Source: Lachnospiraceae bacterium (GTDB lineage: Bacteria > Bacillota > Clostridia > Lachnospirales > Lachnospiraceae). From it: DNA of 64,000 nt. Position 1 is the stretch's first letter; each line of letters opens with the position of its first letter. The stretch is from the NCBI GenBank assembly GCA_022647575.1, contig JALCKY010000002.1:124001-188000 (forward strand). The letters run 5' to 3'. Positions 43,498 to 51,859 of the stretch are shown here, piece after piece. The translations under genes were made by a program, and so were the position numbers. The notes below the pieces were generated by a model that was not told where the DNA came from, did no database searches, and saw only the letters and a program-made list of their open reading frames with translations.

Positions 43498-44240
43498 TCT
43501 TCCGCCTCCGGATATTCAATTTTCTTTAAGACGAGTCCTTTCGGAATGGCCGTCGGACCGGCCGCACTGCGGTCGCGCGCTTCCAGAATCTGCTTCATTT
43601 CTCCGGGCTGAATCTCACCGGAGCCGACCTGAATCAGCGTGCCGGAAATAATCCGCACCATATTGTAGAGGAACCCGTTTCCGACAATCGTGAAAATGAT
43701 GAGGTCATCTTCTCTCCGGACGTCGGCGCGGTAAATGGTGCGCACCGTTGTCTTTCCGGAAAAACCGGATGCGCAGAAAGAAGCGAAATCATGCTCGCCC
43801 ACAAGAAAGGCGGCCGCCTCATTCATTTTTCCGGCATCGAGCGGGTAGTAATAATGCATGGCATAAAGCCGCAGCAGCGGATCCGGAAAGGTCCGGTTCA
43901 GGATGTGATATTCATAAGTCTTGACGGTTTTCTGAAAACGCGGATGGAAATCATCCGGCACCTGCTTCGATTCAACGATGCGGATATCTTCCGGCAGTCT
44001 GGCATTGAGCGCGAAGGCGATTTTGGAAACCTCGATGCGCGTCTCGACATCGAAGACTGCAACATTTCCCTCGGCATGTACGCCCGTATCCGTGCGGCTT
44101 GCGCCGATGGTTTTCATCTCTGTGCCGAAAAGTCCGGAAAGCGCCTGATTGACGACGTCCTGAATCGCGATGCCGTTGACCTGCGACTGCCAGCCGACAT
44201 AATTCGTGCCATCGTAGGCAATCGTCAGCTTCACTCTCAT
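43494..44240 (-). CDS. truA: tRNA pseudouridine(38-40) synthase TruA
   Basis: A 248-residue synthase: N-terminal RVKLTIAYDGTNYVGWQSQ, catalytic Asp in ASRTDTGVHAEGNVAVFD (Asp ~52), and C-terminal GNGFLYNMVRIISGTLIQVG. ATG 44240 overlaps the ecfT stop (ATGA) and follows GGAGGAG. ecfT-truA linkage is a classic Firmicutes arrangement. Confidence 0.95.
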   Translation of the reverse strand: MRVKLTIAYDGTNYVGWQSQVNGIAIQDVVNQALSGLFGTEMKTIGASRTDTGVHAEGNVAVFDVETRIEVSKIAFALNARLPEDIRIVESKQVPDDFHPRFQKTVKTYEYHILNRTFPDPLLRLYAMHYYYPLDAGKMNEAAAFLVGEHDFASFCASGFSGKTTVRTIYRADVRREDDLIIFTIVGNGFLYNMVRIISGTLIQVGSGEIQPGEMKQILEARDRSAAGPTAIPKGLVLKKIEYPEAEE

Positions 44241-45049
44241 ATCCAGACTCCTCCGAAAATGCAGAACAGGATCGCGGCAGCAAGATAAACCGCCATGACC
44301 GCGAAGGAAATGTAATCGCGTTTCCGGAAGTGCAGAGGCTTCATCTGCGTCCGGCTGTCGCCGCCGTGATAGCATCTGGCCTCCATGGCCATTGCCAGAT
44401 CATTGGCGCGGCGGAAGGCCGAAACGAAAAGCGGCACGAGAAGAGGCACCATGCTTTTGATTCTTGTCATGAAATTTCCGGATTCAAAATCTGCGCCTCT
44501 GGCGATCTGCGCCTTCATGATTTTATCCGTCTCCTCCATGAGAATGGGGATGAAGCGGAGTGCGATCGACATCATCATCGCGATTTCATGAACCGGCACG
44601 CGGATATATTTCAGCGGCATGAAAAGACTTTCCATCGCATCGGTCAGCTGATTCGGAGTCGTCGTAAGAGTCATCACGGAAGAGCCGAGGACCAGGTACA
44701 TCAGACGGACGGCCATCCGGACCGCCTGCTTCAGACCTTCCTGCGTAATCGTCAGAACCCAGAAATGAACCAGCGGTGTTCCGGGCGTCAGGAAAATGTT
44801 GAAGACCACGGTAATCGCCAGGATGATATAAATCGCCTTGAGTCCTTTCAGGATCAGACGGACCGGCACATTGGAAAGAATCACCAGTGCAGCAAGCGCA
44901 GCGGTTACGAACAGGTATCCGGCCACCCCTTTGACCAGAAAAAGAGAGACGATGAACACAAGGGTGCCGATAAACTTCACCCTGGGATCAAGCTTATGAA
45001 GGATTGAATCGCTTGGGTAATACTGCCCGAACGAGATTTCCTGCAGCAT
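44237..45049 (-). CDS. ecfT: ECF transporter transmembrane component EcfT
   Basis: A 270-residue shared membrane subunit of the group II ECF vitamin importers. It starts MLQEISFGQYYPSDSILHKL DPRVK, has about five to six membrane helices, and the two Ala-Arg-Gly-type coupling motifs: AQIARGADF (about 183-191) and AMEARCYHGG. It couples the ATPases encoded upstream to S components encoded elsewhere. It starts two bases after the ecfA fusion stop. Confidence 0.95.
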   Translation of the reverse strand: MLQEISFGQYYPSDSILHKLDPRVKFIGTLVFIVSLFLVKGVAGYLFVTAALAALVILSNVPVRLILKGLKAIYIILAITVVFNIFLTPGTPLVHFWVLTITQEGLKQAVRMAVRLMYLVLGSSVMTLTTTPNQLTDAMESLFMPLKYIRVPVHEIAMMMSIALRFIPILMEETDKIMKAQIARGADFESGNFMTRIKSMVPLLVPLFVSAFRRANDLAMAMEARCYHGGDSRTQMKPLHFRKRDYISFAVMAVYLAAAILFCIFGGVWI

Positions 45050-45051
45050 GC

Positions 45052-46869
45052 CTATTTATCCCCGCTGTTCAATGAGCCGTCTTCCGGTTTCTGTTCTGTC
45101 TTATTTTTCAGTGCCTTCAGTATGGTTTCCGTTGCTTCCGCAACTGTCATTGCTTCCGTATCGACGTCAAACCCGTGTTCTTTCAGGTCATTCATCAGAT
45201 AGGTGATCTGCGGTGCGGCCAGACCCATTTTCTCCAGTTCCCTGAAATGGGAGAAGACCCTGCGCGGCTTATCATCGAATACCACTTTGGCATCGTTCAT
45301 GACGACCAGGCGGTCCGCATACATCGCTGCGTCCTCCATGCTGTGCGTGACCAGGACGATCGTGATGCCGCGCTTCACCTGAAGATATTTGATCCGGTCG
45401 AGAATTTCATCGCGCCCCTGAGGATCCAGTCCGGCTGTCGGCTCATCCAGGATGAGAACCTTCGGATCCATTGCCAGGACGCCTGCGATTGCGACTCTTC
45501 TCTTTTGGCCGCCGGAAATTTCAAACGGCGATTCCTTATACATTTCCTCGGGCACTCCGACATGACGGAGCGCATGCGTCGCTCTTTTGACGGCCTCCTC
45601 CTGGGAAAGTCCTTCATTTTTCGGACCGAAGCAGACGTCTTTCAAAACATCCGTTTCGAACAGCTGATGCTCCGGATACTGGAAAACCAGCCCGACCTGC
45701 GTGCGCAGGTGCCGGAGATCAAAACCATCGGAGCGGATATCCTTTCCTTCAAAAAGCACCTGCCCGGAGGTCGGTTCAATCAGACCGTTCAGGTGCTGGA
45801 CCAGCGTCGATTTTCCGGAACCGGTATGGCCGATCAGGCCGATGAATTCTCCCGGATAGATTTTGAGGCTGACGTGATCAAGAGCCTTAACTTCATAAAC
45901 CGTGCCGTCCCCGTAAGTATAGCAGACGTCCTTCAGTTCAATCAGAGGAGCCGCCACCCCCGTCCCCGTGGTTCCGCCGGCAGCTGCTGCAGTCTCATCG
46001 GGAACCACTACCCCCGTCCCCGTGGTTCCTTCCAGAGCTTTTTCCAGTTCGTCAATTGTCAGGATTCCGTCGGGGATTCCGACACCGCACTTCTTCAGCT
46101 CGTGCGCCAGATCCGTGATCTGCGGAACATCGAGGTGATAGGATTTCAGCTTCTCCACCTGGGAGAAGACTTCCCGCGGGGTTCCGTGCATCACGATATT
46201 GCCCTTATCCATGATATAGACGTCATCCGCGAAGACGACTTCTTCCATGTAATGGGTAATGAGGATAATGGTAACTCCTTCTTTTTTATTCAGTTCGCGA
46301 AGGACCTGCAGGACTTCCGCACGGCCGTTCGGATCCAGCATTGCCGTCGGTTCATCGAGCACGATGCATTCCGGATGCATGGCAACGACGCCCGCAATCG
46401 CGACCCTCTGCTTCTGTCCGCCCGACAGGCGGTTCGGCGATTTTTCACGGAAGCCGAGCATCCCGACTTTTTCCAGGCTGTCTTCGACCCGCGTCCAGAT
46501 ATCTTCCGTACGGATGCCGATATTCTCCGGGCCGAACCCGACATCTTCCTCGACAACCGTGCCGATGATCTGATTATCCGGATTCTGGAAAACCATTCCC
46601 GCCTTCTGACGGATCTTCCACAGGTCTTCTTCCTCATTCGTGTTGATTCCGTCGATCCACATGGTTCCGCTCGTCGGCTGCAGCAGGGCATTGATGTGCT
46701 TGGCCAGCGTCGATTTTCCGGAGCCGTTGTGTCCGAGGACCGCAATGAACTGACCCGCTTCGATTTTCAGGTCAATGCTGTCAATGGCCTGGGTCATTTC
46801 CGGGTCGGTATCATCATCCGAATATTTAATATAATTGAAGCCCATCTTCGAGGCTTTGATTATGCTCAC
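45052..46869 (-). CDS. ecfA1-ecfA2: Energy-coupling factor ATPase, EcfA1-EcfA2 single-chain fusion
   Basis: A 605-residue fusion of two ABC ATPases normally encoded by separate genes. Half 1 (1 to ~278) has Walker A GHNGSGKST, LSGGQKQRVAIAG and CIVLDEPTAMLDP, and ends at the usual EcfA1 C-terminus (ILTIDELEKAL). Half 2 (~308-605) has GHTGSGKST, ISGGQKRRVAIAG and LILDEPTAGLDP. The linker ([20 protein letters not shown] then TTGTGVAAP) is encoded by two copies of a REP-like palindrome. The frame is open throughout and ends with TAG. It powers EcfT downstream and overlaps engB by 4 bp. Confidence 0.93.
   Translation of the reverse strand: MSIIKASKMGFNYIKYSDDDTDPEMTQAIDSIDLKIEAGQFIAVLGHNGSGKSTLAKHINALLQPTSGTMWIDGINTNEEEDLWKIRQKAGMVFQNPDNQIIGTVVEEDVGFGPENIGIRTEDIWTRVEDSLEKVGMLGFREKSPNRLSGGQKQRVAIAGVVAMHPECIVLDEPTAMLDPNGRAEVLQVLRELNKKEGVTIILITHYMEEVVFADDVYIMDKGNIVMHGTPREVFSQVEKLKSYHLDVPQITDLAHELKKCGVGIPDGILTIDELEKALEGTTGTGVVVPDETAAAAGGTTGTGVAAPLIELKDVCYTYGDGTVYEVKALDHVSLKIYPGEFIGLIGHTGSGKSTLVQHLNGLIEPTSGQVLFEGKDIRSDGFDLRHLRTQVGLVFQYPEHQLFETDVLKDVCFGPKNEGLSQEEAVKRATHALRHVGVPEEMYKESPFEISGGQKRRVAIAGVLAMDPKVLILDEPTAGLDPQGRDEILDRIKYLQVKRGITIVLVTHSMEDAAMYADRLVVMNDAKVVFDDKPRRVFSHFRELEKMGLAAPQITYLMNDLKEHGFDVDTEAMTVAEATETILKALKNKTEQKPEDGSLNSGDK
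45951..45975 (+). repeat. REP-like palindrome, copy A, inside the ecfA fusion linker
   Basis: Shares the core CACCCCCGTCCCCGTGGTTC with the elements at 46001-46029 and 51825-51852; its left arm is partly eroded (CCGCCAC instead of GGAACCAC). It encodes GTTGTGVA in the fusion protein. Confidence 0.8.
46001..46029 (+). repeat. REP-like palindrome, copy B, inside the ecfA fusion linker
   Basis: A 29-bp element with perfect 8-bp inverted ends, GGAACCAC and GTGGTTCC, around a C-rich core. Same orientation as copy A, 25 bp away. It encodes [10 protein letters not shown]. Confidence 0.85.
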
Positions 46870-47480
46870 TGTTCGTCAATAACCTTCCAGATTTCTTCCC
46901 GTCCTTCTTTCGAAAGTGCGGAAAATGCAATCACCGGCGTCTCACTTTTTACCTTGAGTTTCGTCCGGATCAGGTTGATGCTTTTCTGAAGCTGGGAACG
47001 GTTAATCTTGTCCTTCTTTGTGGCAATGATGACCGGCTCCATTCCGTTCGACGTAATCCAGTCGTGCATGAGAACGTCATTTTCCGAAGGTTCGTGGCGG
47101 ATATCGACGAGAAGGAAAACCGTCTTCAGCATTTCCGAATGATGAAGATAATTCTCGATCATCTGCCCCCATTTCTCTTTCTCGGAAATGGCCGTCTTCG
47201 CAAACCCGTATCCCGGCAGATCGACCAGGTAGCAGTCCGGTGCAAAATCAGGCTGTTCCACGCCCTGATTGACATGATAATAATTTACCGTCTGGGTCTT
47301 GCCCGGATGTTCGGACGTATGGGCATAGCTTCGCCTGCCAATCAAAGAATTGATCAGCGAAGATTTCCCCACATTTGATTTTCCGGCAAAGGCTATTTCT
47401 TTCCGGCTGTTGACCGGGAGCTCTTTGCTGGTGATCCCGATGACTTTTTCGAGTTCGACGCTTTTGATCTTGTTTTCCAT
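46866..47480 (-). CDS. engB: Ribosome biogenesis GTPase YsxC/EngB
   Basis: A 204-residue GTPase for 50S assembly: G1 GKSNVGKSSLIN (about 33-44), G3 DLPGYGFAK and NKxD-like ATKKDKI. The N-terminus ENKIKSVELEKVIGITSKEL is normal for the family. The start lies 88 bases inside the 3' end of lon in another frame. lon-engB order is conserved in Firmicutes. Confidence 0.95.
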   Translation of the reverse strand: MENKIKSVELEKVIGITSKELPVNSRKEIAFAGKSNVGKSSLINSLIGRRSYAHTSEHPGKTQTVNYYHVNQGVEQPDFAPDCYLVDLPGYGFAKTAISEKEKWGQMIENYLHHSEMLKTVFLLVDIRHEPSENDVLMHDWITSNGMEPVIIATKKDKINRSQLQKSINLIRTKLKVKSETPVIAFSALSKEGREEIWKVIDEQ

Positions 47481-49795
47481 TTTACCAGCGACTCTTCCAA
47501 TACTTCTTCCATGGTGCTGACAAAAACAATCGTCAGCCCGTCTGTGATTTCACTGCTGATTTCCTTGACATCTGCCCGGTTCTTTTCCGGAACCAGCACC
47601 TTACGGATGCCCGCCTTCTTTGCGGCCAGAAGTTTTTCCTTCAGTCCGCCGATCGGGAGCACTCTTCCGCGCAGCGTAATCTCGCCCGTCATGGCAACGT
47701 CCGCGCGCACCGGAATATTCGTCAGTGCGGAAAGCATTGCTGTTGCCATCGTGATGCCTGCCGACGGTCCGTCTTTCGGAACGGCTCCTTCCGGAATATG
47801 AATATGGATATCATGCTTCTGGAAAAAGGCGTCCGGAATCCGGTATTTCTTCGATACGGAACGGATGTAGCTGATGCCGGCCTGGGCAGATTCCTTCATG
47901 ACATCTCCGAGCTGTCCGGTCAGAAGGAATTCTCCCTTGCCCGGCATCACGTTCACTTCGATCTGCAGCGTCTCGCCGCCGACCGACGTCCACGCAAGTC
48001 CCCGCACGATGCCGATCTCATCCGTCGTATTCTTTTCCGTCACCGAGTACTTTTCATTTCCCAGGAATTCCGGCAGGTTCTTCTCCGTGACCGCGACTTT
48101 CTTTTTCTTCTCCTCAAGGACCATCCGTGCCGTCTTCCGGCAGATCTCGCCGATCAGCCGTTCCAGCTGGCGCACGCCCGCTTCCCTTGTGTACTTCGTG
48201 ATCATGTCGGAAATGGCCCCGTCGCTGATCGTCAGTACGCTTGCTTTGATCCCGTTGCCCTTCATCTGCTTCGGAATCAGATGCTCCTTGGCGATGTGCA
48301 TCTTTTCATTTTCCGTATAGGAACTGATCTCGATGATTTCCATACGGTCCAGAAGAGGCCTCGGAATCGTCTGCGGATCATTTGCCGTCGTAATGAACAG
48401 CACCTCCGAAAGGTCGATCGGCAGTTCAATGTAATGATCCTCGAAGCGGCTGTTCTGCTCGGAGTCCAGTACTTCGAGAAGCGCGGAAGCCGTGTCTCCC
48501 TTGTAGTCCGAACTGACCTTGTCGATTTCATCCAGCACCATGAGCGGGTTCTTGACCCCGCACTGCTTGAGGCTGTTGGCGATGCGTCCCGGAAGCGCGC
48601 CGACGTACGTGCGGCGGTGTCCGCGGATTTCCGCTTCATCCTTCACGCCGCCCAGCGCCAGGCGGACGTATTTCTTGCCGAGTGCTTCCGCGATGGATTT
48701 CCCGATGGATGTCTTGCCGGTGCCCGGAGGCCCGATGAGGCAGAGAATCGGGCTGGTGCCCTTGCTCGTCAGAAGCCGGACCGCAAGGAACTCAATCACG
48801 CGCTCCTTCACTTTTTCCAGTCCGTAATGGTCGCGGTCAAGAATTTCCTTGGCACGTTTTAAATCCGTATTGTCCCTGCTGGTCTTATCCCACGGCATGG
48901 CCAGAAGCGTTTCGATATAGGCACGCATGACCGCCGATTCCGGCGACTGCGTCCCCATGTTCTGAAAGCGGGTAATCTCATCGTTGATTTTTTCCTTGAC
49001 TTCTTTCTTTGCTTTCAGTTTCTCGCACGCCGTACGGAAATGATCAATGTCCGTGAGCGTCGTATCGTCTCCGAGCTCCTCCCGGATTGCCTTGAGCTGC
49101 TCGCGCAGGATGTATTCCTTCTGGTTCTTGTCGATTCTCTCCTTGACCTTTTCCTGAAGATCGCGCCGGATGACCTGGATCTCGATTTCATTTTCCATCA
49201 GGACACTCAGGACTTCATAGCGGTCGGACAGCGTCACGGCATCCAGAAGCTGCTGCCTCTTCTCATACGGAAGCGGCAGGTTGATGCTGATCTGATCGAC
49301 CAGTTTCTCCACGTCATTGATCTGCATGATCTGGTCGGCGATGTCATGGCTGATTTTTTCCCCGGAATTGCAGTAAGTGGAAAATGCGCTCTTGAGATTT
49401 CTCAGCATCGCTTCGCCGGCATTTTCCGAAACCGGCTCTTCGATTTTATCGACCGTCAGGATTTCCGCTTCCAGATTGGCCTCGTCCTTTTCAAAAGAAA
49501 CGAGCTCCGCTCTCTCCAGACCCTCGACCAGAACCCGGAGCATATTTTTCGGAAGCTTCACGACCTACTTGATTTTTGCAATGGTCCCGATATGATAGAC
49601 GTCGAGAAGCCCGGGCTCCTCGACATCTATATCTTTCTGCGTAATCAGAAAAAGCTTCTGGTCCCTGAGCATCGCCTTCTCAACGGAGCGCACGGACTTC
49701 GGCCTGCTGATATCAAAATGAACGATCATGCCGGGAAGGATCGTCGTGCCGCGAAGCGCGACTGCCGGCAGGATCAGGATAGAATTATTTTCCAC
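47393..49795 (-). pseudogene. lon: Lon ATP-dependent protease, interrupted by an in-frame amber codon
   Basis: 800 codons from GTG 49795 (behind GGGGAG). Codons 1-76 encode the normal Lon N-terminus (ILPAVALRGTTILPGMIVHF...IGTIAKIK). Codon 77 is TAG (49565-49567) where Lon homologues usually have Gln, then the same frame continues VVKLPKNMLRVLVEG to the end. The AAA+ domain has GPPGTGKTS; the Ser-Lys protease dyad lies in KDGPSAGI and LKEKLLAAKKAG. One C-to-T change in CAG explains it. Reinitiation at GTG 49561 could yield a 722-residue N-truncated protein. A basic Ser/Lys tail overlaps engB by 88 bases. Confidence 0.9.
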
Positions 49796-51773: not shown

Positions 51774-51791
51774 AAATGACCTCCTGCTGAA

Positions 51792-51852
51792 GAACCATGG
51801 GGACGGGGGTGGTGGTTCACCTTGGGAACCACCACCCCCGTCCCCGTGGTTC
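51792..51852. repeat. REP/BIME-like inverted pair between tig and clpP
   Basis: Two copies of the palindromic element in opposite orientation, 51792-51818 and 51825-51852, 6 bp apart. Each has GAACCA...GGTTC ends around a GGGGACGGGGG-type core. The pair can form one long hairpin in the tig-clpP transcript. The same element occurs twice inside the ecfA fusion. Confidence 0.9.
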
Positions 51853-51859
51853 GCCTAAA

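Follow-up and report, generated by a model that had tools for sequence, protein, structure and literature searches.

REPs have been described as mostly extragenic, with a RAYT that is usually single and located near REPs, as set out in part of PMC2817692 and in the introduction of PMC8266576. Intragenic copies are also on record: a portion of PMC3733652 reports in-frame insertions of GTAG/CGTC super-family REPs within genes of known function. Dimers or groups, which encode 20-30 residues, account there for more than half of the intragenic REPs, with HH dimers predominant (its Table 1), and the copies are discussed as potentially neutral where they lie in flexible linkers or loops. Rickettsia palindromic elements (RPEs; about 150 bp), as presented in part of PMC10969869, have likewise spread in frame into unrelated genes. 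On the protein side, YkoD of the yko system, described in part of PMC5037267, is a single chain that contains two ECF ATPase domains. Neither intragenic REPs nor fused ECF ATPases are new in themselves; for a REP-encoded linker in a fused ECF ATPase, we found no description in the open-access literature searched, judged by titles and abstract openings.

We analyzed such a gene in a 64,000-nucleotide stretch of DNA (the window) from a Lachnospiraceae bacterium. Its product resembles YkoD in combining two ECF ATPase domains; however, YkoD is part of a group I module and has its domains in the opposite order, the N-terminal half being modelled on EcfA2 and the C-terminal half on EcfA1 in a figure legend of the part of PMC5037267 cited above. 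Similarly, the repeats in the window share with the intragenic REPs in that portion of PMC3733652 their nature as short palindromes in frame within genes, but differ from the GTAG/CGTC REPs described there in that their host has a Lachnospiraceae-type genome, their coding pairs are direct where HH dimers predominate there, and neither GTAG nor CGTC lies directly upstream of the stem. Within 8 nt upstream, either motif was found in 0 of 64 copies (downstream, GTAG in 0 and CGTC in 4 of 64); thus, the family falls outside both super-families. The in-frame insertion of palindromes in unrelated genes recalls the RPEs in the part of PMC10969869 considered here, but the window unit is only 29 bp long and the genome encodes a RAYT.

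The Fused ATPase Gene and Its Linker

The fused gene and its neighbors are arranged as follows.

44237..45049, minus strand: ecfT-like gene (CbiQ family; PF02361, E 1e-49), next downstream
45052..46869, minus strand: fused EcfA1-EcfA2 gene, 605 codons and 605 aa by open-frame translation
45055..45945, minus strand: EcfA2 half, residues 309-605 (TIGR04521 match)
45947..45975, minus strand: REP copy 2, encoding GTTGTGVAAP (residues 299-308), from repeat comparison
45976..46000, minus strand: 25-nt non-REP spacer between the REPs, encoding DETAAAAG (residues 291-298)
46001..46029, minus strand: REP copy 1, encoding residues 281-290, from repeat comparison
46033..46869, minus strand: EcfA1 half, residues 1-279 (TIGR04520 match)
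46866..47480, minus strand: GTPase gene (Pfam MMR_HSR1), upstream

The GTG start at 46869 overlaps the end of the upstream GTPase gene, which we take to be engB/ysxC, and the stop codon lies at 45054-45052 (minus strand). The CbiQ-family neighbor provides the EcfT adjacency by which ECF ATPases are recognized, and a tRNA pseudouridine synthase gene comes after it. The Lon frame (window 47393-49561) begins within the substrate-binding domain, at Pfam profile position 76, and its open frame comprises 723 codons stop to stop versus 766-1042 in the best 19 relatives; loss, a frameshift or misassembly may have affected the Lon N-terminus in the genome of the window organism (G000; 3.03 Mb in 11 contigs, 94.3% complete).

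The initial annotation had claimed that EcfA1 and EcfA2 are joined in this 605-codon frame and that the joint is encoded by two copies of a palindromic repeat, and our analysis bore out both points. In profile searches, residues 9-279 matched NCBIfam TIGR04520 (ECF_ATPase_1) and residues 310-584 matched TIGR04521 (ECF_ATPase_2), each far above the cutoff. The catalytic motifs, to which we attach the usual ATPase motif names by assumption, were kept in both halves as invariant columns across 11 aligned fusions. By sequence, the solved chain that best matched the first half was 4huq_B, whose label differs between entries (EcfA1 or EcfA 2), and the best for the second half was 4mki_B (EcfA2). Read from the DNA, the joint consists of E280, REP 1, DETAAAAG and REP 2, followed by LIELK of EcfA2. 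The two REPs are direct 29-nt repeats, 90% identical and 54 nt apart, each with a five-G run, and the 3' arm of copy 2 carries two T-to-C changes relative to the consensus. The Gly/Thr/Val linker described earlier was accurate as to those residues but incomplete, since the linker also contains Pro and the eight residues of the non-REP spacer, which is possibly a remnant of an older linker. RNA folding of the fused linker was ordinary (z 0.66).

An AlphaFold2 model built on 14 rows, 3 of which cover EcfA2, had a mean pLDDT of 83 and a pTM of 0.76, with both ATPase domains confident; residues 284-287 and 289-304 fell below pLDDT 50 (20 of the 21 residues in 284-304), which fits a flexible tether in the REP-encoded linker. 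An alignment in which rows of separate EcfA1 and EcfA2 were combined with the fusions was not used, because the EcfA2 rows were placed on the EcfA1 half. As judged from the sequence, the product would be a single chain of ~65 kDa with two complete nucleotide-binding domains acting in cis on EcfT, and we infer that the cell produces this chain and that its two halves function as an EcfA1-EcfA2 dimer within one molecule; the predicted structure is insufficient as proof of such a dimer.

A REP Family with a Single RAYT

That the repeat recurs elsewhere in the window, as first annotated, was upheld, and it proved to be a true REP family. A search with an 18-nt core (up to 3 mismatches) detected 4 copies in the window versus 0.06 expected, the other two forming the following pair.

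51791..51853, strand not applicable: inverted REP pair between two minus-strand genes

The flanking genes are presumably clpP-like and trigger-factor-like, and the pair folds as a long RNA hairpin (-61 kcal/mol). In the whole genome, a 20-nt core (up to 2 mismatches) matched 66 copies, 27 forward and 39 reverse, versus 0 for the reversed control, and the 41 other genus genomes yielded a single weak match. A 27-nt pattern (up to 3 mismatches) was present in 5 of 397 family genomes, with 63 copies in that of the window and 7, 4, 1 and 1 in G193, G069, G252 and G394, respectively. The few copies in G193 and G069, which belong to other genera, are related but different REPs (L122, L123, L125, L126, L128). 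An exact 22-nt pattern had 0 matches in viral_contigs.

Three of the features expected of a REP/RAYT system were found: a short palindrome dispersed in many copies (66), mostly extragenic, and a RAYT flanked by its own REPs. The genome has one Y1_Tnp match above cutoff, a 254-aa IS200-like/RAYT protein, whose gene has two direct REPs on one flank and a single inverted REP on the opposite flank; its match to NCBIfam NF047646 (REP_Tyr_transpos) had an E value of 2e-20, but its 72.9 bits lie below the cutoff of 80. The REP consensus is stop-free in all six frames, a property that is favorable yet not rare, being shared by 19% of random 29-mers from the window.

In-Frame REPs in Other Genes

Coding calls were made on the fetched REP loci from frames with coding-like codon use. 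In this classification of our own, 12 of the 66 copies lie inside seven identified genes, two more are probably genic, one located in an EamA protein and one in a Thr/Asp-rich protein, and the remainder were judged non-coding. The genic copies are distributed as follows.

ECF fusion: 2 copies
Radical SAM/DUF512 protein: 2 copies
Aconitase-family hydratase: 2 copies
GalT: 1 copy
CobU: 1 copy
MBL-fold protein: 2 copies and a degenerate third
PurN, C-terminal end: 2 copies

The MBL-fold protein, so named on our assumption from a sequence motif, had no Pfam or NCBIfam match at the thresholds used. In alignments of the hydratase, DUF512, GalT and MBL-fold proteins, the REP-encoded stretch corresponds to a loop whose counterpart in relatives is short or variable; the REP peptide was found in none of the aligned relatives. 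The first three alignments had 30 rows each, including the window organism's own, taken as the best 30 loci from 37 (hydratase), 36 (DUF512) and 33 (GalT) genomes, with the G007 row empty at the DUF512 insertion site; the MBL-fold alignment had 5 rows, the loci of 4 of 7 relatives having come out. In the CobU-family gene (L101:1276-1965), the REP is read in another frame and encodes a Gly-rich GDGGGGS, like an engineered flexible linker. The MBL-fold gene (L107:1063-1950) carries three successive in-phase REP copies that are missing in the aligned relatives.

The genic pairs also differed from the others in arrangement. All 5 genic pairs are direct, whereas 18 of the 23 pairs judged non-coding are inverted (Fisher p = 0.0026; the count takes pairs L090 and L106 from the 20-nt core search), and a spacing divisible by three was seen in 5 of 5 coding pairs but in 1 of the 5 direct pairs judged non-coding (p = 0.048); both the orientation and the phase tests were framed after inspection of the data. 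Median RNA fold energies were -66 kcal/mol for inverted non-coding, -31 for direct coding and -27 for direct non-coding pairs, which indicated that the energy tracks orientation, not coding. A tentative and rather doubtful interpretation is that the REPs occur in two forms, inverted intergenic pairs and direct in-phase cassettes for coding linkers, the latter repeatedly lengthening loops and the ECF linker and being selected for frame and against mRNA hairpins. Selection against harmful insertions alone could be enough for the pattern of orientation and phase.

Fusions and Separate Genes among Relatives

The initial annotation expected close relatives to carry separate ecfA1 and ecfA2 genes without the repeat, and the genus gave a divided answer. 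Junctions were readable in 37 of 42 genomes (unreadable in G001, G002, G019, G028 and G033): 31 are separate and lack the repeat, and 6 are fused (G000, G004, G015, G022, G030 and G061, the last scored from an open frame whose EcfA2 half has a run of N and no A2 start). In 28 of the separate pairs the two genes use different frames (in 19 of these 28 they overlap or are at most 2 nt apart), and in the other 3 they share a frame that a stop interrupts. The other five genus fusions have REP-free linkers of unrelated sequence. These include the nearest readable relatives, G015 and G022, which are fused through longer linkers without the REP core; a 20-nt core search found no REP match anywhere in the genomes of G015, G022 and G002. 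Outside the genus, fusions occur in G041, G046 and G051 and on two Lachnospiraceae contigs (L057, L058). The 10-nt core GGGGACGGGG was missing from the loci of the ten other fusions checked, and an 8-nt piece of the REP core was present in 2 of the 10, L010 (G022) and L058, but not within the G022 linker itself. A shared ancestral linker of G000, G015 and G022 was considered and rejected, the linkers giving no convincing alignment as homologues.

In the careful ECF tree (41 rows), the gene of the window grouped with G015 and G022, all fused, with support of 100/98, and the fusion state changes at least 4 times, G061 being left out of both the tree and this count. Thus, fusion arises readily without REPs. 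AU tests, chosen after inspection of the data, rejected trees that hold G000 in a group with 16 separate-gene rows (p = 0.005) or with G063 (p = 0.007). Quick trees of the A1 or A2 part held the trio of G000, G015 and G022 together (93 and 94, respectively), the trio lying near the outgroup in the A2-only tree with very low support.

Other genes were compared in the same way. The EngB+EcfT tree recovered G000+(G015,G022) at 97/94. A four-gene tree, which omitted Lon hits of at most 52% identity as likely other Lon genes, gave G000+(G002,(G015,G022)) with an SH-aLRT of 99, the trio without G002 not being rejected (p-AU 0.37), and the careful hydratase tree had the same arrangement at only 93/68; G002 may sit inside the G000/G015/G022 clade. 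In the Lon FastTree, G000 fell with G019 and G063 at 0.81-0.85, and G015/G022 joined G020, G030 and G061 at 0.98; the careful Lon tree united G000 with G019 at only 63/35 and did not reject the trio (p-AU 0.19).

Order of Fusion and REP Insertion

According to the initial annotation, a REP insertion made the fusion. This is the part of the earlier reading that our results speak against, since the two relatives grouped with G000 at 100/98 are fused without a REP. Because G015, G022 and G002 have no REP match, fusion first and REPs later is the simplest order. Thus, we propose, as the probable explanation of the locus as a whole, that the fusion predates the REPs, which later colonized its linker. 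The ancestor common to G015/G022 and the lineage of the window would already have had ecfA1-ecfA2 as one chain, with a disordered, fast-changing linker at the joint. The REP family would then have multiplied through the genome in the window's lineage, presumably by means of the single RAYT as putative mover, and two direct copies would have landed in the linker, of which they now form most of the length. Tolerance of the copies would have come from the flexibility of this inter-domain site, from a consensus that is stop-free in six frames and from their being in phase. In favor of this account are also the in-frame REPs in length-variable loops of the hydratase, DUF512, GalT and MBL-fold proteins and the low pLDDT of the linker between two confident ATPase halves.

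The strongest competitor, which we regard as unlikely, is that the stop/start junction was lost when a REP inserted between the two genes, and that this insertion fused them independently of G015/G022. It keeps some weight because common descent of the linkers cannot be proven from such diverged sequences, and it would fit the prevalence of separate pairs among the readable junctions, in many of which stop and start overlap or nearly do so, and the REP copies that, E280 aside, directly adjoin the end of EcfA1 and the start of EcfA2. The recurrence of fusions on the ECF tree and the Lon tree, which alone leaves G000 apart from G015/G022, are also compatible with it. However, the sister rows are fused without a REP, the grouping of G000 with the separate-gene rows was rejected, and the 25-nt inter-REP spacer is non-REP and unlike an ancestral junction.

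It is less probable still that the fusion is partial, EcfA2 also being made separately from an in-frame GTG inside the REPs: the REP-encoded linker, read directly, offers two in-frame GTG codons, each behind a G-rich stretch, but the ribosome-binding spacing is unconvincing by eye and the fused linkers of relatives are long and open. An assembly or base-calling error that joined two frames in the G-rich repeats, conceivable from the five-G run in each REP, is very improbable given the fused sister species, the frames that continue past REPs in the hydratase, DUF512, GalT, CobU and MBL-fold genes, and the contig number and completeness of G000.

Returning to the preferred order, fusion and then REPs, we infer that the tempting account, with a mobile repeat as the cause of the fusion, probably has the order reversed: the fusion would have provided the permissive site and the repeat would have moved in. 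Beyond this locus, the enzymes that carry such insertions naturally and in frame, and that have many relatives without them, provide a small test set for how mobile palindromes reshape proteins. The same set lets one ask why coding and intergenic REP copies differ in arrangement, and the direct, in-phase coding pairs are a pattern worth following up.
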